Below are positions 1-8,555 of a stretch of DNA of 64,000 nt, one piece after another. Each line of letters begins with the position of its first letter. Positions within the stretch are counted from its first letter, which is position 1. The notes under the pieces are model-generated. The model had not been told where the DNA came from, ran no database searches, and worked only from the letters and a program-made list of their open reading frames with translations. Source of the stretch: Methylophilus medardicus (GTDB lineage: Bacteria; Pseudomonadota; Gammaproteobacteria; Burkholderiales; Methylophilaceae); assembly GCF_006363955.1 (NCBI RefSeq), contig NZ_CP040948.1:2046001-2110000 (forward strand), given 5' to 3'. Both the position numbers and the translations under genes were made by a program.

Positions 1-57
1 GATAATCGGTGAAGGGCTAAGCTCAAGTTGAGTAATTAGAGATATCTCATGGCTCAT
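1..57 (-). CDS. 5' end of an unknown protein, coupled to the UmuD-like gene (partial)
   Basis: Nineteen codons are open on the minus strand from an ATG at 57-55 to the window edge. The start overlaps the stop of the UmuD-like gene in an ATGA arrangement, which implies translational coupling. The visible N-terminus begins MSHEISLITQLELSP. It does not look like the usual UmuC start (FALVDCNNFYASCE type), so no function is assigned. In many bacteria a UmuD-like gene is followed by a translesion polymerase subunit, but nothing here shows that. Confidence 0.5.
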   Translation of the reverse strand, partial: MSHEISLITQLELSPSPII

Positions 58-677
58 TTGAATCTCCTGAATGAACCCGTGACAACACCCGTGATTTCAA
101 ACTCCATCTGCTTTGTGATTAAGATAGGTGCATATTTGCCTGAAGAGTTTTCCGGCAACAGTTTGGGTAAGCCATTGGGTTGTTTAGATAGAGTTTTGAC
201 GGTGAACTCACCATCAATCATTGCAAGTACGATATCTCCCAGTGAGGCTTGCTTCCCTTTCACGACGATAGCTTTATCACCGGGCATCAGACCAGCCTCA
301 ATCATGGACTCCCCCTGAATGGTGATAAAGAAAGTGTCATTGCCATCCCTAATCAGGTACTCATACATGTCGATTTGCTCTTCGACATCGTTATCAGCAG
401 GCGCTGGCAAGCCTGCAGGCACCTTGGATTGATACAACGGCAAACTCAGGCTTGGCAAACCTAATACTGGTTCGGAAAATTCATCTACCGCATCCAGATT
501 GTCCTTTTGCTCAGCCTGTCTTTGCTTCTTTGCATAAGACTCAAGAAAATCAATAATCACTGGTTTCTGGCTATTAGGCACACGAATAACGGACGTTTCC
601 TCACGGAACGTGCCTGACCCTACTTTTCTGCCGGAGCCGGGTTTCCTGGTAGTGATTTTTCTGTTGTCATTTTTCAT
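54..677 (-). CDS. UmuD/LexA-like S24 self-cleaving protein with N-terminal basic extension (copy 1)
   Basis: A 207-residue serine/lysine autoprotease of the LexA/UmuD family (S24). Residues 80-205 align by eye with UmuD: a likely Ala88-Gly89 cleavage bond in KVPAGLPAP, nucleophile Ser124 in QGESMIEAGL and general base Lys161 in EFTVK. Unlike classical UmuD it has about 80 extra N-terminal residues with a GSGRKVGSG motif followed by RVP-SQKP, which could bind DNA. It is strongly similar, in the same register, to the protein at 25344-25964. Upstream lie two copies of a TTGTNACAA palindrome, suggesting autoregulation. UmuDAb of Acinetobacter, a UmuD with an N-terminal extension that represses damage genes, is the closest known analogue; a similar role here is inference. 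Confidence 0.85.
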   Translation of the reverse strand: MKNDNRKITTRKPGSGRKVGSGTFREETSVIRVPNSQKPVIIDFLESYAKKQRQAEQKDNLDAVDEFSEPVLGLPSLSLPLYQSKVPAGLPAPADNDVEEQIDMYEYLIRDGNDTFFITIQGESMIEAGLMPGDKAIVVKGKQASLGDIVLAMIDGEFTVKTLSKQPNGLPKLLPENSSGKYAPILITKQMEFEITGVVTGSFRRFK

Positions 678-842: not shown

Positions 843-856
843 GCACATAAAGTGCT
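843..856. promoter_or_regulatory. Operator-like palindrome GCACATAAAGTGCT, copy A
   Basis: An imperfect palindrome with GCAC/GTGC arms lies 105 bp before the HTH gene. The identical 14-mer recurs at 1317-1330, directly before the AAA ATPase gene. A partial inverted match, AGCACTTT, lies at 898-905. It is a likely binding site for the HTH regulator encoded at 961; that assignment is inferred from position only. Confidence 0.6.
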
Positions 857-960
857 ACATAAACGCCACATAACTGTATCGCTTTAATAATATATGTAGC
901 ACTTTGTTGCGTTTTAATGTGAAAGTGATACAATACCTCTTGGTAAACAAGGGTTGGTAA

Positions 961-1314
961 ATGCCAAGAGTTAAGGTAGATAGTGAGTTGCTTGCTGAGG
1001 TGCAAGCGCTCGAAGCGGCGATTGGCAATCAGTCGAAATTAGCTCATATGCTTGGCGTAGACCGATCAACACTTTTGCGTTTTTGTAGCACGGGTAAAGC
1101 GATTGATAAGACCCGCGAAACAATGCGAAAAGGGTTAATACGCTACAAAAATGAAACAACTGGTAGCTCTGAAAAAGTAAGTGCATCCATCGGTGCGACT
1201 TTGACAGGAAACATACAAGAAGATATGCAAATGCTACGCTCGTTATGCACCACGGTTCTCACCGTATTAGATGGGTATGAGAAACTTTTAGCAAATGGGA
1301 CAAACAATAATTAA
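961..1314 (+). CDS. Small HTH protein, probable regulator of the AAA/subtilase operon
   Basis: A 117-residue protein. Residues 18-50 (QSKLAHMLGVDRSTLLRF region) form a convincing helix-turn-helix; residues 75-110 are a helical tail that could dimerise. The start at 961 has an AAGGG-type ribosome site about 10 nt upstream. It lies between the divergent UmuD-like gene and the AAA ATPase gene, 40 nt before the latter, and is flanked by two identical 14-bp palindromes. Repression of both itself and the downstream operon is the simplest reading. The family was not recognised beyond the HTH. Confidence 0.8.
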   Translation: MPRVKVDSELLAEVQALEAAIGNQSKLAHMLGVDRSTLLRFCSTGKAIDKTRETMRKGLIRYKNETTGSSEKVSASIGATLTGNIQEDMQMLRSLCTTVLTVLDGYEKLLANGTNNN

Positions 1315-1316
1315 AG

Positions 1317-1330
1317 GCACATAAAGTGCT
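1317..1330. promoter_or_regulatory. Operator-like palindrome GCACATAAAGTGCT, copy B
   Basis: Exact copy of the 843-856 site, placed 2 nt after the HTH gene stop and 9 nt before the strong ribosome site GGAGGTGA (1339-1346) of the AAA ATPase gene. Binding here could block transcription or translation of the operon separately from its regulator. Confidence 0.6.
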
Positions 1331-1354
1331 TACTCCGGGTGGAGGTGAAGAAAA

Positions 1355-2368
1355 ATGGCAACCAAGGCACAACAGGACAGAGCAGCACTAGAACGGACAA
1401 TGAACGCAATCATTGCGAGTTCCAGAAAAAATAAGCAACCACAGCTCATTGGGCTGGAGGAATCGGTTGCTCAAGCGACACCAGCCAGCATTGCATTGCC
1501 GGATCGTGTTGCTGAGCTTGTGTATGACATTCCAGCACGCCGCAAGCTGGATGAACTTGTACTGACCGAAGAGATTGTCAGCGAAGTTGAAGAATTCATT
1601 CATGAATACTCCAACACCGACTTGTTACGCTCTCACTCTATAGAACCTCGCCATACAGTTCTCCTTAAAGGACCTCCAGGTAACGGAAAGACGAGCCTCG
1701 CAGAAGTATTTGCAACTGAGCTGGATTTACCTTTGCTGTCTGTTCGTTACGATGCAATCATTGATAGCTACCTGGGAGAGACTGCCAGCCGCTTGAAACG
1801 CCTGATCGACTTTGCAGAACAAACGCCTTGTGTCCTTTTCTTTGATGAATTTGATGCACTTGGCAAAGAGCGTAGTGACGTTCAGGAAACTGGCGAAATC
1901 AAACGCGTGATCAGTTCCTTGCTCGTTCAGATGGACCGTTTACCGTCCCATACGATTGTTGTGTGTGCCACTAACCATCCTGAGTTACTGGATCGTGCTG
2001 TTTGGCGTCGTTTTGAATTGAAACTGGAGATTAATCCACCTGACAAATCACAACTGATGAAGTGGTTTGCAAATTTCAAGAAATCCATGGGCAAAGCAAG
2101 TGTTGGTATTAACGCTGAAGACTTTGCAAAATACATGGAAGGTGAAACAATGGCTGGCGTGGAATCGTTTATTTTAGACGTTCGGCGTAAAATAATTTTA
2201 TCGAAAGGTAAGCTCACTGCTTCCGATGCGATAAAGAATGTACTGAGTAGGTTGAAGAAAACAATAAATACTAACAATATTGCGGGGTCTCAGGCTCATG
2301 GCAACTCAACATCCAATCGTGCGCATCGCACGAGATCAGGCAGCAAAAAAACGAATTCCGGGACGTAA
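1355..2368 (+). CDS. AAA+ ATPase of a subtilase-associated pair
   Basis: A 337-residue classical AAA ATPase. Visible motifs: Walker A GPPGNGKTS at 106-114, Walker B LFFDEFDAL at 161-169, sensor 1 in VVCATNHPE (about 202-210) and second-region-of-homology arginines at 214, 218 and 219. The N-terminal 90 residues carry no recognised domain, and the C-terminus ends in a basic low-complexity tail. An excellent ribosome site (GGAGGTGA) precedes the ATG. The 3' end overlaps the subtilase gene by about 70 nt in another frame, so the two are co-translated. ATPase next to S8 peptidase is a recurrent, uncharacterised pair in accessory regions; a role in unfolding or presenting a substrate or gating the protease is inference. 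Confidence 0.88.
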   Translation: MATKAQQDRAALERTMNAIIASSRKNKQPQLIGLEESVAQATPASIALPDRVAELVYDIPARRKLDELVLTEEIVSEVEEFIHEYSNTDLLRSHSIEPRHTVLLKGPPGNGKTSLAEVFATELDLPLLSVRYDAIIDSYLGETASRLKRLIDFAEQTPCVLFFDEFDALGKERSDVQETGEIKRVISSLLVQMDRLPSHTIVVCATNHPELLDRAVWRRFELKLEINPPDKSQLMKWFANFKKSMGKASVGINAEDFAKYMEGETMAGVESFILDVRRKIILSKGKLTASDAIKNVLSRLKKTINTNNIAGSQAHGNSTSNRAHRTRSGSKKTNSGT

Positions 2369-4889
2369 GCCTCGGTTTCCGAGAGCTATTGGTTACGAAA
2401 AACAAGGGCAGAGATTATCAAAAACATTTGATACAGCTGCAAAGTCACTAGCAGAATGGGAGAAAGGCGCTAAAATCAGCGCCGATCCTAGAGCAGTGGT
2501 TCCAGAGCGTGCCCTTGTTTTTGATTTGCTTGGTCCTGTAGCAGACTTCCAACTGGCCGCACAAGCCTTGGGGCTTGAATGGCTAACAGGACAGCGTAAA
2601 AGCGAAGATGGCGATGAAGAGACCGCCGATGATGACGAGGAACTTCAAAGTCAAACCATCTACGTCACAATGCCAAGCCTTGCGGGTTTGCAAAAACTCC
2701 TGGCGATGTGGAATCGCTACCAAAAAGGCCAAAAACCAGAGAAACCTGAAGCCCCTTTCTGGAAAATATTTGAATGGCTATATGACCTTCGTGTCTGGTC
2801 CATTAAAGATAGAGTCGATCCTGCTTTAACCAACTTCATCAACAAACTCCTGAAAGAACAACCTGACCGCGTTGTGCAGGTAGAACTGGACTTTTGGTAT
2901 CGAAATGCCAAAGAACGCCGTGATAGTGCGATTACCACTCTGCAAACGATGCTGGATGAGGTTGGTGGCACTCTCATAGATTTAGTTGAAATTGAAGAAA
3001 TTCGCTATCAAGGTGCCCTCGTTGCCATTCCTGCCAAGGTTGCCAGCGAGCTGGCGGAGCGAAATGGGAAATTAGGTGGTTTGGATGAAATCATGACCAT
3101 CCGGCCCCAATCACAATATGCAGACGATGCTCCTGAAGACGAAAATGCTGAAGCAGAAGCAGGCTACGACTTCGGAGATAATCCACCCACCGGAGAATGT
3201 ATTACTGCCGTTTTGGATGGCTATCCAATTGAGAACCACGAAGCACTAGCGGGCCGCGTCATCATTGAAGAAGTAGATGTTACTGGCGCGCAAGTGCCTG
3301 CATTGAACAGAGAACATGGAACAGCCATGGCTTCCATGATCCTGCATGGGGATCTGGGGGCATTGCCGCCAGCTTCCATCAATCGGAAAATCGCATCGTT
3401 TCCGATTCTAACCATGAGTAAAAATGCTGAAGTGATTGCATCGAACAAACTAGCGATAGGTATTGTTCACAGGGCACTTCAAAGAATCGTAGCGCATGCG
3501 GAATCCGATAGTCCACTGCGAAATATTACGGTGATCAATCACTCTATTTGCGATACGAATGCACCATTCGTCCGCAGGCCTTCTCCATGGGCCATGCTCT
3601 TGGACTTCTACAGCCATCATCATCGATTATTGTTCGTCATCAGTGGTGGGAACATTTACTCGAAATTTCCAGTAACTAACTATGCAAACAATGCTGCATT
3701 CTTAGCGGCCACGCCTGCCGAAAGGGAGGCAAGTTTAGTCAATGCTATTGAAAAGGCCAAAGGTACACGGTCGATTTTAAGTCCAGCTGAGTCAGTGAAC
3801 TCGATCACTGTGGGCGCATTGCATGAAGAGGTGAATACCAATGCCCCTCAAAATGCAACAGACCCCTATCCAAGCTTTGTCATGACCAATCTAGCCTCTT
3901 CCGTAGGTTTTGGTGTCAATAGAAGTATCAAACCAGACGTGGTTGAACAAGGTGGCCGATTTGCAGTTCGCGGGTCGAATCATCCTGGTGGATATGTTGA
4001 GGTTCATCCGCATGTCACTTCAGACTTCGGCCAGGTGGCTGCATGTCCATCCAAAACAGGGGATTTACAGGCGACAAGAAGATCAGCAGGGACAAGTAAT
4101 TCTACTGCACTTATCACTCGCACGTGTAATCTGATTGCTGACGCTTTAGATGAAGTATTTGAGAATGATGGATTGAGATGGCTGGATATGGGTACACGCG
4201 TGCCTATCTTGAAAGCACTCTTGACGCATAGTTGCCAATGGGGCGATATCGGCAAAGTATTGGAGGTGGCATTTCCACCCCAAGGTCGTTATGTCTGGTC
4301 AAAGCGTAGAGATTCAGTCGCCAAGTTTTTAGGGTATGGAAGACCACAAGTTGAAGATGTCTTGGCGGGAAATAACAGGAGAATCACCTTATTGGGCGAT
4401 GATGTTATCAAGCCAGAGGAACGCCATGTGTACACCATCCCCATTCCCAAATCCATGTTCAGATCGCGTGAAATCAAGAAAATCAAAATCACGCTTGCAT
4501 GGACTGCCCCAGTATTGACCAGCATGGCCGATTACCGTGGCGTTGCACTGAGAGTGGTTGATGAACATGGTAGAGCAGACTTCTGGGAGGGATGCGAAAG
4601 AGGTGGCGCACTGCAACCTAATGGCGATACAACAGCGAGAGGCACTGTGATGCACTTACAAATGGAAGGTAAAGTTGCCAAACAACTGAAAGACAACAAC
4701 CAGAACTTAACTATTTGCGTACAAGCCCGTGCGTTGCATGATTCTCTGATAAATGCGCCGATTCCATATGCATTAGCCATATCCATTGAAGTAGGACAAT
4801 CGATCACGGCGAATATTTATCAAGAAGTGCAAGAGAACATCAGAGTGCCGCAACGCATTAGACAACGTGATCGTGTAGGGGGAGCATAA
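2298..4889 (+). CDS. S8 subtilisin-like serine protease with long N-terminal region
   Basis: The reading frame is open from a TTG at 2280 (869 residues); the ATG at 2298 (863 residues, starting MATQHPIVRI) is preferred. Counting from the TTG, the triad is Asp313 (AVLDGYP), His346 (REHGTAM) and Ser606 (GTSNSTA), with an oxyanion Asn near 458 (SGGN). No signal peptide is seen, so it acts in the cytoplasm. Residues 196-280 resemble an I9-type propeptide fold; residues 110-120 are strongly acidic. The C-terminal 200 residues look beta-rich. The gene overlaps the AAA gene at its 5' end and the next gene by one base (TAATG). The complete triad argues for an active protease whose target is unknown. 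Confidence 0.9.
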   Translation: MATQHPIVRIARDQAAKKRIPGRKPRFPRAIGYEKQGQRLSKTFDTAAKSLAEWEKGAKISADPRAVVPERALVFDLLGPVADFQLAAQALGLEWLTGQRKSEDGDEETADDDEELQSQTIYVTMPSLAGLQKLLAMWNRYQKGQKPEKPEAPFWKIFEWLYDLRVWSIKDRVDPALTNFINKLLKEQPDRVVQVELDFWYRNAKERRDSAITTLQTMLDEVGGTLIDLVEIEEIRYQGALVAIPAKVASELAERNGKLGGLDEIMTIRPQSQYADDAPEDENAEAEAGYDFGDNPPTGECITAVLDGYPIENHEALAGRVIIEEVDVTGAQVPALNREHGTAMASMILHGDLGALPPASINRKIASFPILTMSKNAEVIASNKLAIGIVHRALQRIVAHAESDSPLRNITVINHSICDTNAPFVRRPSPWAMLLDFYSHHHRLLFVISGGNIYSKFPVTNYANNAAFLAATPAEREASLVNAIEKAKGTRSILSPAESVNSITVGALHEEVNTNAPQNATDPYPSFVMTNLASSVGFGVNRSIKPDVVEQGGRFAVRGSNHPGGYVEVHPHVTSDFGQVAACPSKTGDLQATRRSAGTSNSTALITRTCNLIADALDEVFENDGLRWLDMGTRVPILKALLTHSCQWGDIGKVLEVAFPPQGRYVWSKRRDSVAKFLGYGRPQVEDVLAGNNRRITLLGDDVIKPEERHVYTIPIPKSMFRSREIKKIKITLAWTAPVLTSMADYRGVALRVVDEHGRADFWEGCERGGALQPNGDTTARGTVMHLQMEGKVAKQLKDNNQNLTICVQARALHDSLINAPIPYALAISIEVGQSITANIYQEVQENIRVPQRIRQRDRVGGA

Positions 4890-5785
4890 TGCCCGTATTT
4901 GATATAGCAGACTCTTTAGGCAGCCAGTCTAATGAAGACATCGCAGCATATTTAACCGACATTGGAGACCTTGCTGCCGCTCAAGACTTCATTGGGGCTA
5001 ACGTTGCAGGACAGGGAGGAATGTTTCCAACTAGAGCATGGAAACATGCCGGGGTAAGCGTTGGTTTTATTGATCCTGCAAACGCTCCAGCAAATGGGGT
5101 CTACACGATCCAAAGAGCCAGTGCAATCCAAGCAGATACTTCTCTCATAGGTCAATCACTCAAGATAACGCTGGACCATTTTTATGTGCATAATTACCCC
5201 GGCAATGGTATCCATACTGTCTTGTTTGATTTTTTGGGAAAAGCCCAAATTGCGCAGACCGTAGAAGAATTACACCATCCAGTAAAAGTAATGGTGGCTG
5301 ATGGAGCGCATGCGGGTGTTGTCAGCACCCCTATTTTCTTGGGCTTGAACGTAGAACCTAATGGAGTGGCTTTTGAAGGCCGAACCATCTGTGTTGAGAG
5401 TAGTGACGATAACTTCGTTTTATCAGCTTTTGACTCTCCGGTTTTTAAGGCTGGTCTTGCAATCGTTCATGCCGCCAAACCAGTGTTAAAGCCTTATACA
5501 GCGTTAACAATAGCAGCCATCACGGCCATCATGAAGAGGAAACAAAATACTCAAGTGCATAGTTTCGATTTGGGTTTAGATTTCGCTCAAAATATCACTT
5601 CAAACAAATTGAAATTAGGGTCATATTTGGTGATTCAGTCTGATGACCAAATTGATATGAATAATTATCGCTGGAATCAAAATACTTCTCGGTTGGAACA
5701 TTTTCTTGGGCCAAACCAACAAATCGATTTCAACTACTTGATTATCGGAGTAACCAACTACCAGGCACCAGCTTTGGTGCCTTAG
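4889..5785 (+). CDS. Unknown third protein of the AAA-subtilase operon
   Basis: A 298-residue protein of no family I recognise. The start codon overlaps the subtilase stop (TAATG), so it belongs to the same operon. It has no signal peptide, transmembrane segment or obvious enzyme motif; the composition suggests a mainly beta fold (repeated short hydrophobic strands, for example around 90-115 and 185-215). Its last codons overlap the convergent TniQ-like gene by 4 nt. It could be the substrate, sensor or adaptor of the AAA/protease pair, but the sequence alone does not decide. Confidence 0.7.
   Translation: MPVFDIADSLGSQSNEDIAAYLTDIGDLAAAQDFIGANVAGQGGMFPTRAWKHAGVSVGFIDPANAPANGVYTIQRASAIQADTSLIGQSLKITLDHFYVHNYPGNGIHTVLFDFLGKAQIAQTVEELHHPVKVMVADGAHAGVVSTPIFLGLNVEPNGVAFEGRTICVESSDDNFVLSAFDSPVFKAGLAIVHAAKPVLKPYTALTIAAITAIMKRKQNTQVHSFDLGLDFAQNITSNKLKLGSYLVIQSDDQIDMNNYRWNQNTSRLEHFLGPNQQIDFNYLIIGVTNYQAPALVP
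5764..5781. terminator. Hairpin at the convergent 3' ends
   Basis: GGCACC-AGCTTT-GGTGCC forms a 6-bp stem inside the last codons of the unknown operon gene, followed by TTAGCTTTTATT. It may terminate the plus-strand operon. The T-run is broken, so it is moderate evidence. Confidence 0.45.
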
Positions 5786-6585
5786 CTTTTATTCCCAAGC
5801 ATCGTTTTGAATGCCTTATACAACACCGGCTTTGCCAGCGTTTTACCTTCCAGCAAAAGCCGGTTATTCACCTTCCTGTTACTCACATAAACACCGCTTG
5901 CCTTTAACTCGTCCACAATGAGCTTCACCTTATTTACTGAAGACTCCTGATTGATAATGCCTGAGATTCGTTTGTAGTCTGCATGTTTTGAAGATATCCG
6001 TGCGCATTGTTCAGGAAACCAGTATCTCAAGCATGACCCGGTAAAGTTGAGCAACTTGGCAATTTCGGATAATGGCCGATGCTCGTTTCTGTCTTCTGCA
6101 AACTTGGTCAGAGTTTCTAACAACTCAATTCTTTGAGCTGCCACTAGTAAAGGTCTTTCCGCCCGGTCCAACATCTTTTCGGGGAGTTTTCTTAAGACAC
6201 GACCACTGAATTCATATGCTTGAGTTTCATTCAGGAAAACATCACTCAGGAACATATCCAAGCCATAGCAGACTGATAGAAGCTGCGGCAAGGAAGGCTT
6301 CTCTCCCTTGTTTAACCAACCTTTGATCGCCCAACTACTCAACCCAATTTGCTTACAAAAAGTGGTACCGATTCCATTGGCGTAATGACTGATGGCTTGC
6401 CTGAGAAATTTAGTGAGAGCGTCTACCGTAGCGACATTATCCCATTCATTCAGATGGCAGATCAGGTCTTCTATCGCGTAAAACACCCAATAGTCGAATT
6501 CGGAATATTCAACCATTTCATCGTCAGCCCGAACATTCAGACCCTGATAGCAATAAGCACATCTCGAAAGATCAGGATAATGCAT
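5782..6585 (-). CDS. TniQ/TnsD-like protein, apparently N-terminally truncated
   Basis: A 267-residue protein. It begins near a CxxC (Cys9, Cys12) and lacks the usual TniQ N-terminal region before it. Residues 75-120 hold a helix-turn-helix-like segment (CKQIGLSSWAIKGWLNKGEK) followed by a LLSVCYGLDMFLSDVF stretch. Residues 150-200 match the TniQ-type C-terminal pattern (repeat of LSEIAKLLNFTGSCLRYWFPE then YKRI), and residues 215-240 match the common SVNKVK...GVYVSNRKV tail. Upstream the frame stays open only to a stop at 6625-6627 with no better start. TniQ/TnsD proteins select target sites for Tn7-like transposons. No TnsA, TnsB or TnsC gene is seen, so this is likely a remnant. Confidence 0.65.
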   Translation of the reverse strand: MHYPDLSRCAYCYQGLNVRADDEMVEYSEFDYWVFYAIEDLICHLNEWDNVATVDALTKFLRQAISHYANGIGTTFCKQIGLSSWAIKGWLNKGEKPSLPQLLSVCYGLDMFLSDVFLNETQAYEFSGRVLRKLPEKMLDRAERPLLVAAQRIELLETLTKFAEDRNEHRPLSEIAKLLNFTGSCLRYWFPEQCARISSKHADYKRISGIINQESSVNKVKLIVDELKASGVYVSNRKVNNRLLLEGKTLAKPVLYKAFKTMLGNKS

Positions 6586-6711
6586 GATATAGGGCTGAAC
6601 AGTGTCTACAAAGTTAGTGGCGATTCAAGTTTCAGTATGTGAATCACCGCACAGAAACCTAAGACATACTGCCTCATGATTGAACTCCATCAATTGATTG
6701 GACAAAATATT

Positions 6712-7365
6712 ATGAAAACAGATACTCAGTTAAAGCACGATGTTACAGCAGAGCTTAAATGGGATAGCTCAGTGAACGAAAATGACATTGGTGTTGAGGT
6801 TAAGGACGGCATTGTCACATTATCTGGGCACGTTGGTAAGTATTCAGAAAAGTGGGCGGCTGAGTGCGCTGCTCAAAAAGTACCTGGCGTAAAAGCATTA
6901 GCAATCGAAATGGATGTTAAGTTATCAGGATCTAACAATCGTAATGATACTGACATTGCACGGACTGCCAAAAGCGTCCTCGAATGGACGACGAACTGGC
7001 CAAAAGACCAAGTAAAAGTGATGGTGGAAAAAGGCTGGATAACCTTGTCAGGTCAATTGGATTTTGAGTATGAGCGTCAACTCGCCCTCTCTAATGTGCG
7101 CCATTTGATGGGTGTGACAGGCGTGAGTAATCAAATTACGCTCAAACCATTTTTATCTACAAACAGTGTTAAATCAGTCATTGACGCGGCATTGAAAAGA
7201 AGAGCTTTGACAGACTCACAAGAAATCGTTGTCACGGTCGATGGTGACAAGGTTAACCTTTCGGGTGTCGTGCATAGCTGGTCTGAACGCGAAATGGTGA
7301 GTGATTCTGTTCGAAACACGCCAGGCGTTTCCGAAGTCAGCGACAATATTACTGTTGCATACTAA
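6712..7365 (+). CDS. BON-domain protein (three BON domains)
   Basis: A 217-residue protein starting MKTDTQLKHDV, the typical start of this family; upstream in-frame residues to 6676 are unlikely to be translated. Three BON repeats lie at about 5-70, 78-145 and 150-217, each with the VxDGxVTLSGxV-type signature (KDGIVTLSGHV, EKGWITLSGQL, DGDKVNLSGVV). There is no signal peptide, so it is probably cytoplasmic. BON domains bind membranes or lipids and are common in stress-induced proteins. It heads a same-strand group with a zinc alcohol dehydrogenase and a P-type ATPase. Confidence 0.85.
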   Translation: MKTDTQLKHDVTAELKWDSSVNENDIGVEVKDGIVTLSGHVGKYSEKWAAECAAQKVPGVKALAIEMDVKLSGSNNRNDTDIARTAKSVLEWTTNWPKDQVKVMVEKGWITLSGQLDFEYERQLALSNVRHLMGVTGVSNQITLKPFLSTNSVKSVIDAALKRRALTDSQEIVVTVDGDKVNLSGVVHSWSEREMVSDSVRNTPGVSEVSDNITVAY

Positions 7366-7517
7366 TTTATAAAGTTAGAAGCGGTCTTTATGAAAAACAA
7401 CTTCAATATTGAAGTTGTTTGAAGCGATTGCAGGAATATTTGACTCCCAACCAAACTGAATCGCCGTTAATTCAGAGACAACTCTATCTAACTCCTCTTA
7501 AAAGTAAGGTGTATTCA

Positions 7518-8555
7518 ATGAAAGCACTTGTTTACGAGAGTATTGGCAAGAAAGCTTTATGTGAGCGTCCTGCGCCGCAGATATTAGAAACAACGGATGC
7601 AATCATTAGAGTCACTAAAACAACCATATGCGGTACGGATTTGCATATCCTTAAAGGGGATGTACAAAGTTGTAAACCGGGACGAATCTTAGGACATGAG
7701 GGTGTCGGGATTGTTGATCGTGTTGGATCTGCTGTGGTTACTTTTAGGGTTGGTGACCACGTCTTGATTTCATGTATCAGTGCTTGTGGTAAGTGTGCGT
7801 ATTGTAAAAATAAAATGTACTCACATTGCATCAATGGTGGATGGATACTTGGAAATACCATTGATGGCACTCAAGCAGAATTCGTTCGTATTCCTTACGC
7901 GGATACCAGCCTCTATCCAATTCCAGAGGGCTCAGATGAAGACGCATTAGTGATGCTAAGCGATATCCTGCCAACCGGCTTTGAGTGTGGCGTGCTCAAT
8001 GGCAAGGTTGAGCCAAGCGCTACGGTTGCTATTATAGGTTCAGGGCCCATTGGGCTGGCGGCATTACTGACTGCACAGCTCTACTCTCCGGCAGAAATCA
8101 TCATGGTCGATCTTGCGGATAATCGACTTGAAGTAGCGAAACGTTTCGGCGCAACTGCAATCCTGAATAGTAGCAAAGTGGATGTAGTAGCTGAAATCAT
8201 GAAGCTAACGAATCAACAAGGCGTTGATACTGCGATCGAAGCTGTAGGCATTCCAGCCACCTTTGAAATTTGTGAACAAATTATCGGGCCTGGAGGCAGA
8301 ATTGCCAATGTTGGTGTACACGGTACCAAGGTCGATTTACACTTAGAAAATCTTTGGGATCGGAACATCACGATCACAACAGGATTGGTTGATACTGCCA
8401 GTACATCGATGCTGCTTAAGTTGGTGCAATCAAAGAAAATTGACGCCAAAACACTCATCACACATCGGTTCAAACTTGAAAATGTTTTAGATGCCTATAC
8501 GACTTTTGAAGATGCTGCAAAAACCAACGCACTCAAAGTTTTAATTGAAACTTAA
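7518..8555 (+). CDS. Zinc-dependent alcohol dehydrogenase (MDR family)
   Basis: A 345-residue medium-chain dehydrogenase starting MKALVYESIG, with an AAGGTG ribosome site at about 7506; a longer in-frame start at 7419 is less likely. Catalytic zinc ligands: Cys38 (TICGTD) and His60-Glu61 (GHEG). Structural zinc ligands: Cys90, 93, 96 and 104. The Rossmann motif is IIGSGPIGLAALL near residue 170. It oxidises or reduces an alcohol/aldehyde with NAD(P)H. It lies between the BON and P-ATPase genes; comparable neighbourhoods occur in low-oxygen loci of Burkholderia. An in-frame 56-codon open stretch follows the stop. Confidence 0.88.
   Translation: MKALVYESIGKKALCERPAPQILETTDAIIRVTKTTICGTDLHILKGDVQSCKPGRILGHEGVGIVDRVGSAVVTFRVGDHVLISCISACGKCAYCKNKMYSHCINGGWILGNTIDGTQAEFVRIPYADTSLYPIPEGSDEDALVMLSDILPTGFECGVLNGKVEPSATVAIIGSGPIGLAALLTAQLYSPAEIIMVDLADNRLEVAKRFGATAILNSSKVDVVAEIMKLTNQQGVDTAIEAVGIPATFEICEQIIGPGGRIANVGVHGTKVDLHLENLWDRNITITTGLVDTASTSMLLKLVQSKKIDAKTLITHRFKLENVLDAYTTFEDAAKTNALKVLIET

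Follow-up and report, generated by a model that had tools for sequence, protein, structure and literature searches.

A third gene, T3, accompanies the IetAS ATPase-subtilase pair in one clade that includes Methylophilus medardicus

A 64,000-nt stretch of the Methylophilus medardicus genome (contig NZ_CP040948.1, assembly GCF_006363955.1, forward strand 2,046,001 to 2,110,000; hereafter, the window) carries four co-directional genes at positions 961-5785, which encode a 117-aa helix-turn-helix (HTH) protein, a 337-aa AAA ATPase, an 863-aa subtilase, and a 298-aa protein that we term T3. On sequence grounds, the ATPase and the subtilase correspond to IetA and IetS and thus form an established toxin-antitoxin and anti-phage pair rather than a new one. 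In one clade, however, IetS is constantly accompanied by the third gene; in this clade the IetS active site is conserved and operons of this type occur on plasmids and phage contigs. We propose, with about even confidence, that the locus is a three-component variant of IetAS in which IetA would restrain IetS and T3 would be the dedicated partner, most likely both substrate and effector. No description of such a three-gene form was found in our searches of the published literature, which covered titles and passages and did not extend to several IetAS papers.

The IetAS pair and its constant third gene

The two enzymes were identified using PADLOC profiles, IetA with PDLC04232 (407 bits over residues 3-308) and IetS with PDLC04233 (833 bits over residues 1-856; E-values in Table 1). 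Both also match NCBIfam anti-phage families below the cut-offs of those models (IteA: 241.7 bits, cut-off 510; IteS: 56.7 bits, cut-off 900). An earlier reading of this DNA, made from the letters and open frames only (hereafter, the sequence-only reading), had described an intact AAA ATPase, and the translation agrees, with readable Walker A (GPPGNGKT) and Walker B (LFFDEFDA) motifs. The same reading had proposed a candidate cytoplasmic proteolytic system; its AAA-associated subtilase and accessory, defence-type context hold, but the pair is more than a candidate because PADLOC names it IetAS. The genes ietA and ietS are adjacent and co-directional, ietA first, with frames that overlap by 71 nt, and the ietS and T3 frames overlap by 1 nt (TAATG), as expected from the tightly coupled three-gene operon (overlaps of about 70 nt and 1 nt) described earlier; the gap between the HTH gene and ietA is 40 nt.

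Among homologous pairs, S026-S025 of SGI1 is reported to be a functional toxin-antitoxin system with a subtilase toxin and an AAA protein antitoxin (PMC5006074), and a mycoplasma AAA/subtilisin pair is likewise reported to combine a protease toxin with an ATPase antitoxin (PMC8562856). A recent P. aeruginosa study ties IetAS to phage resistance and gives the mechanism as unknown (PMC11878078). By analogy, IetS may be the toxin and IetA the antitoxin in M. medardicus. IetAS was also reportedly assayed for phage defence in a 2020 screen.

To survey T3, genome contigs were scanned with two short peptide patterns, which favour close relatives and yield a lower bound. At least 21 loci were recovered, and 17 of the 21 have the order ietA-ietS-T3; within these 17, the contig of L010 ends inside T3, and L020 and L022 have interrupted IetS frames. 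The other loci comprise two at contig starts (L027 and L028) and two with a degraded T3 and no ietS in view (L029 and L030). Searches that started from IetS gave a sharper result: T3 is present with 7/7 near-full-length IetS that reach at least 37% identity (the window among them) and was detected with 0/118 other, weaker IetS matches (22 + 79 + 17). Many of these 118 match a subtilase weakly or come with little flanking sequence, and a very divergent T3 could be missed. From 398 genomes of the phylum, 25 match IetS, and T3 occurs in exactly three, which are the near-full-length ones at 37% or more (the window, G195, and G367). In one genome counted among the 118 (G232), the IetS match at 38% is confined to residues 304-527 and falls in a split frame, and there is no T3. 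T3 adjoins two of 81 plasmid records with IetS, both at 42% or more; the next, among the 40 records listed with their identities (the other 41 fall outside this comparison), is at 34%. Further T3 matches on plasmids at E 5 were limited to three related cyanobacterial plasmids. Finally, 19 viral contigs encode IetS, and T3 is found in two at 42% and was not detected in 17 at 33% or less, for which a maximum-sensitivity T3 profile scan was also negative. A single-sequence IetS scan of the genome contigs found no relative. The number of independent events is smaller than the number of loci because three pairs (L003/L021, L019/L020, and L023/L024) are near-copies, and G195 and G367 are apparently the genomes of L024 and L026.

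An IetS tree inferred with a quick method separates 18 T3-positive from 16 T3-negative rows by one branch (Shimodaira-Hasegawa-like approximate likelihood ratio test [SH-aLRT] 100). This tree excludes L020 and L022 (interrupted frames) and L060-L072 (partial or distant), includes 7 of the 79 T3-negative plasmid records, and contains two flagged long branches (L081 and L059). The divergence of T3 parallels that of IetS (mean identity 44.3 vs 44.2%, r = 0.84; 91 pairs from 14 loci). Judged from these comparisons, T3 is firmly placed as a genuine component of the operon in this clade. The sequence-only reading had made its proposal depend on conserved co-occurrence of the third gene with the pair, and T3 does co-occur with IetAS (7/7; 17/21 loci).

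When IetAS lacks T3, the slot after ietS holds hsdR in two genomes and a DNA methylase in two others; therefore, IetAS may be a module that joins other systems. In L084 (4-9602), ietAS is nested in a type I restriction operon with overlapping frames (hsdM-hsdS-ietA-ietS-hsdR), and L083 (reversed-strand coordinates 1320-8038) has the order ietA-ietS-hsdR. In L082 and L085, ietAS lies between a PglZ-like gene (our own reading; the L082 piece has no PADLOC match) and a large DNA methylase, which in L082 matches HmaB, PglX, and DUF1156-type models in PADLOC and in L085 is a shorter frame related to that of L082, short or broken.

Structure of T3 and IetS and the protease partners of T3

T3 has no significant match in Pfam, NCBIfam, PADLOC, or PHROGs (one chance-level NCBIfam match at 0.07), consistent with the earlier view that the third gene belongs to an unknown family, and sequence searches of the Protein Data Bank (PDB) returned chance-level matches only. 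The confidently predicted T3 model (20 sequences; predicted local distance difference test score [pLDDT] 87, predicted template-modelling score [pTM] 0.87) consists of N-terminal helices followed by a beta-sandwich of eight main strands, counted by hand. Three helices (172-215) with the motif FKxGLSLLTTAQPALKPFxxLAxxVV are inserted between strands, and an amphipathic helix is conserved. Among the 50 of 912 Foldseek PDB matches listed for T3, most are PI3K or PLC chains and none is a gasdermin. PI3K and PLC contain C2 domains, and T3 also matches the C2 domain of ITCH weakly (prob 0.97, template-modelling score [TM] 0.29/0.56, root-mean-square deviation [rmsd] 7.9). T3 is predicted to be a beta-sandwich with weak C2-like matches. 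Across the two structure libraries searched, the sole match at E 0.001 or better is a protein with no known function from Hokovirus, a giant virus (BFVD A0A1V0SF49; E 4e-7, TM 0.49).

IetS is 863 aa long from an ATG and 869 aa from an upstream TTG; because the latter start adds six residues, Ser606 of the sequence-only reading is Ser600 here. Asp307, His340, and Ser600, the catalytic triad residues of the S8 family, are invariant in an alignment of 15 T3-clade IetS sequences (L020, L022, and L024 excluded). No obvious hydrophobic signal was seen by eye at the N-terminus, and the claim of a subtilase with a complete triad and no export signal stands. The IetS model (mean pLDDT 81, pTM 0.86) contains, in order, an N-terminal I9-like region, the subtilase catalytic domain, and a C-terminal beta domain; in Foldseek it matches the KP-43 protease best (2.1e-14). 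The N-terminal region has a predicted beta-alpha-beta-beta-alpha-beta order, possibly twice (residues ~73-166 and ~193-270), which we liken to I9 prodomains. The I9-like N-terminus suggested earlier thus fits in its strand-helix order, but no family match proves it.

T3 was also found beside proteases of other families. In L044, which comes from the same phylum as the Anaerolineae locus L027, the T3 frame begins immediately behind the stop codon of a CHAT-WD40 gene (CHAT 2.3e-29), and on Tolypothrix/Fremyella plasmids a shortened T3 lies 60 nt before a C14 caspase gene (two of three related plasmids read). This shortened copy (L009:4707-5243 and L031:5779-6315) is a T3-like open frame without the central sandwich strands and helices, and it is followed by the caspase and an EAD10-FGE protein. 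The IetS profile has no match in the genomes of L027, L028, and L044, and in that of L029 it matches two weak pieces in one open frame. T3 counts in the Chloroflexota, Bacteroidota, and Verrucomicrobiota-type groups are 2/201, 1/198, 1/29 (a class in the first group), and 1/194, each including the seed genome, with L044 as the only newly added T3. Fungal gasdermin genes are clustered with S8 (~60%) or CHAT (~17%) proteases, and the best-described fungal gasdermin is switched on when an S8 protease, HET-Q2, cleaves it (PMC10989679); thus, fungal gasdermins have the same pair of partners as T3.

Regulator, mobile context, and feature map

The HTH gene is flanked by two exact copies of a 14-nt repeat, GCACATAAAGTGCT, the first of which overlaps an inverted repeat (849-861 / 893-905). 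The 13-mer of this repeat has only these two exact copies in the window, whereas with two mismatches allowed there are 3 matches against a chance mean of 2.74 (i.e., no excess). As a motif, the double operator of the sequence-only reading is borne out. At 10/17 ietA-ietS-T3 loci, an HTH homologue lies before ietA, so the HTH gene, which the earlier reading had placed before the operon and which is present here, is a looser part of the operon than T3. The nearest relative found, L010 from a Methylotenera sp. assembly, shares 69% (HTH), 86% (IetA), and 76% (IetS) identity with the window proteins, and 62% for T3 over 196 residues before the contig end. Ahead of its HTH gene, in a place matching the window, L010 carries a 30-nt inverted repeat of its own, and the GCAC-N5-GTGC motif was not found in it; an operator at this position is plausible, and the sequence itself is not conserved. 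The HTH protein would control its own promoter and the operon through GCACATAAAGTGC sites. A promoter scan gave 6 sites, fewer than in shuffled sequence (8.8), and 5 terminator-like sites were found vs 5.5 in shuffles.

T3 occurs in 1/101 relatives, its own genome, and in 1/21 of the genus genomes listed there. The accessory, defence-type location that had been proposed is therefore supported by this distribution as well as by phage contigs and plasmids, and a conserved housekeeping locus shared by relatives, which would have spoken against that proposal, was not found among the 101. Synteny with the congener G008 ends at about window position -4885, and for the gene at 6676 the best congener match lies at another place in the G008 genome. 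Within this non-syntenic stretch, ~3.6-2.3 kb left of the window start (L125:8411-9646), lie an AbiV-like (1.1e-9) and a PDC-S67 (8.2e-73) gene. T3-type operons are present on two plasmids and two phage contigs, in one case with a tail protein gene on one side and a CI-like repressor on the other (L152), in the second case beside endolysin, tail-fibre, and baseplate genes (L153); both contigs are probably prophages. In viral contigs, two narrower T3 queries gave 0 matches and a broader profile gave two. The flanks of T3 loci (61 of 80 flanking open reading frames [ORFs] scanned; best 25 of 50 families) include one resolvase, one IS66 transposase, and one MazG-type protein, as well as ordinary metabolic and regulatory genes.

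A UmuD-like gene lies at window positions 54-677, IMS (impB/mucB) matches occur in two of the 61 flanking ORFs, and genes read as ImuA/ImuB stand beside T3 in L006 (1-1171). SOS mutagenesis genes near T3 operons possibly mark an insertion hotspot. On the other side of the operon, the supposed TniQ fragment was not confirmed: the 267-aa ORF at 5782-6585 (- strand) has sub-threshold matches only (Pfam phage zinc-binding, 0.17; NCBIfam IS3, 5.5e-4) and none in PADLOC or PHROGs, and a TniQ transposon origin was set aside on this account.

Table 1 Features of the T3-type operon in the window
Feature	Position	Strand	Remarks
Operator-like repeat copy 1, GCACATAAAGTGCT	843..856	+	Upstream of HTH gene
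HTH regulator (putative), Fis-type HTH_8, 117 aa	961..1314	+	Pfam HTH_8 3e-6; homologue upstream of ietA at 10/17 loci
Operator-like repeat copy 2	1317..1330	+	HTH-ietA gap; exact copy
IetA, AAA ATPase, antitoxin-type partner, 337 aa	1355..2368	+	PADLOC IetA 1.7e-122; Pfam AAA 9.4e-32
IetS, cytoplasmic S8 subtilase, 863 aa	2298..4889	+	PADLOC IetS 5e-251; D307/H340/S600 invariant
T3, third component, 298 aa	4889..5785	+	No significant family match; partner of one IetS clade
Terminator-like hairpin, operon end	5763..5782	+	Consensus match only; shuffles give as many such sites

Proposed mechanism, alternatives, and significance

In the proposed three-component system, the ATPase IetA would hold IetS, a cytoplasmic subtilase with its own prodomain-like N-terminus, in an inactive state. 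A trigger, for example phage infection or element loss, would free IetS, which would then act with T3, most likely by cutting it. Cut T3 would become a membrane-acting effector, and death or arrest of the infected cell would follow. We favour T3 as substrate and effector, at roughly balanced chances and by a gasdermin-like logic, because T3 stands beside CHAT and caspase genes and fungal gasdermins have S8 or CHAT neighbours. The weak C2-like fold matches and the conserved amphipathic helix also speak for this reading. More tentatively, T3 might found an undescribed family of protease-activated effectors paired in evolution with three unrelated protease types, an S8 subtilase under AAA control, CHAT, and a C14 caspase, i.e., a non-gasdermin counterpart in which a C2-like, membrane-engaging sandwich is released by cleavage.

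Several observations weigh against T3 as an effector cut by IetS. Most IetAS were found without detectable T3, and the SGI1 system that was tested is presented as a pair (PMC5006074); T3 is therefore dispensable for the toxicity of IetS in itself. T3 shows no segment resembling a transmembrane helix (highest Kyte-Doolittle 19-mer value 0.7-1.6), no Pfam match at E 1 to a gasdermin or other effector family, and no Foldseek match in the PDB at E 0.001 or better (best 5.7e-3, with a large rmsd). The CHAT pairing comes from one genome only and the caspase pairing from a single plasmid lineage, whose T3 is internally shortened. T3 of L027 stands without a protease partner (the 407 nt between the contig start and T3 are non-coding, and IetS gave no match in the genome). 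Searches of 50,697 GenBank phage records with T3 and with IetS found no match.

The pairing with proteases of different families would equally fit a shared adaptor, that is, a recognition subunit that senses the trigger (a phage component or the state of the membrane) and then switches the protease on or brings it into position, without being cut by it. A C2-like sandwich often serves as a localization module, which agrees with such a role; T3, however, is encoded last and diverges no faster than IetS, and because of the latter the idea of a diversifying sensor was set aside. We regard an adaptor as the main rival, with a minor, though real, share of the probability. Divergence in step and operon coupling would also be expected if T3 served this clade as an inhibitor of IetS or as a second antitoxin, but the antitoxin role is already filled by IetA in homologues (PMC5006074 and PMC8562856), T3 is encoded after the protease, and a single shared inhibitor is less likely given that T3 homologues stand beside CHAT and C14 proteases, which are unrelated; we consider this reading improbable.

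It is more doubtful still that the operon is a cytoplasmic protein quality-control machine, with the ATPase feeding the protease, rather than a conflict system. The AAA plus protease architecture, AAA matches that include proteasome-activating nucleotidases and FtsH (NCBIfam), and the ordinary metabolic and regulatory genes in the flanks of T3 loci are compatible with it, but the distribution is patchy and accessory (T3 in 1/101 relatives), the operons are carried by plasmids and phage contigs, and PDC-S67 and AbiV-like genes lie nearby; housekeeping proteolysis was set aside given this distribution and carriage. An ordinary two-gene IetAS with a hitch-hiking downstream gene seems hardly credible: although IetAS without T3 is the common form and other genes take the same slot elsewhere, T3 keeps the same place, in overlapping or close frames, in Alpha- and Betaproteobacteria and phage contigs, and it was found with all seven close IetS relatives when the search started from IetS.

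Compared to known IetAS (pTiC58 ietA-ietS, SGI1 sgiAT, and the mycoplasma AAA/subtilisin toxin-antitoxin pair), the operon shares the same two families, the ATPase gene before the protease gene, and a mobile-element context. It differs in its constant T3, in the frequent HTH regulator, in an IetS clade separate from the 16 T3-negative rows, and in scores below the NCBIfam IteA/IteS cut-offs. Bacterial and fungal gasdermin-protease pairs likewise have a ~300-aa partner beside an S8 or CHAT protease (fungal figures from PMC10989679). T3, in contrast, matches no Pfam gasdermin family and has weak C2-like fold matches. We know of no IetA-type ATPase in gasdermin-protease pairs. The Hachiman/AVAST nuclease-protease proenzyme pairs combine a protease with a latent partner in anti-phage modules (PMC12799240), a likeness to the T3 operon; they join a trypsin-like protease to a nuclease, whereas T3 has no nuclease match. 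EACC1-type caspase and EAD conflict systems (PMC7159879) offer a parallel in Tolypothrix, in which a T3-like gene stands beside an EACC1-type caspase (below the model cut-off) and an EAD10 protein, but the window operon has no caspase or EAD domain in Pfam.

The pair itself is already known; what deserves attention is T3 as a family and its switch from one protease partner to another. As a dedicated protein of one clade that diverges in step with IetS, T3 is a concrete candidate for the substrate or partner of the protease, and it makes the mode of action of IetAS testable. If T3 is indeed a protease-activated effector, it would represent a second, unrelated family with gasdermin-style, protease-triggered cell death.

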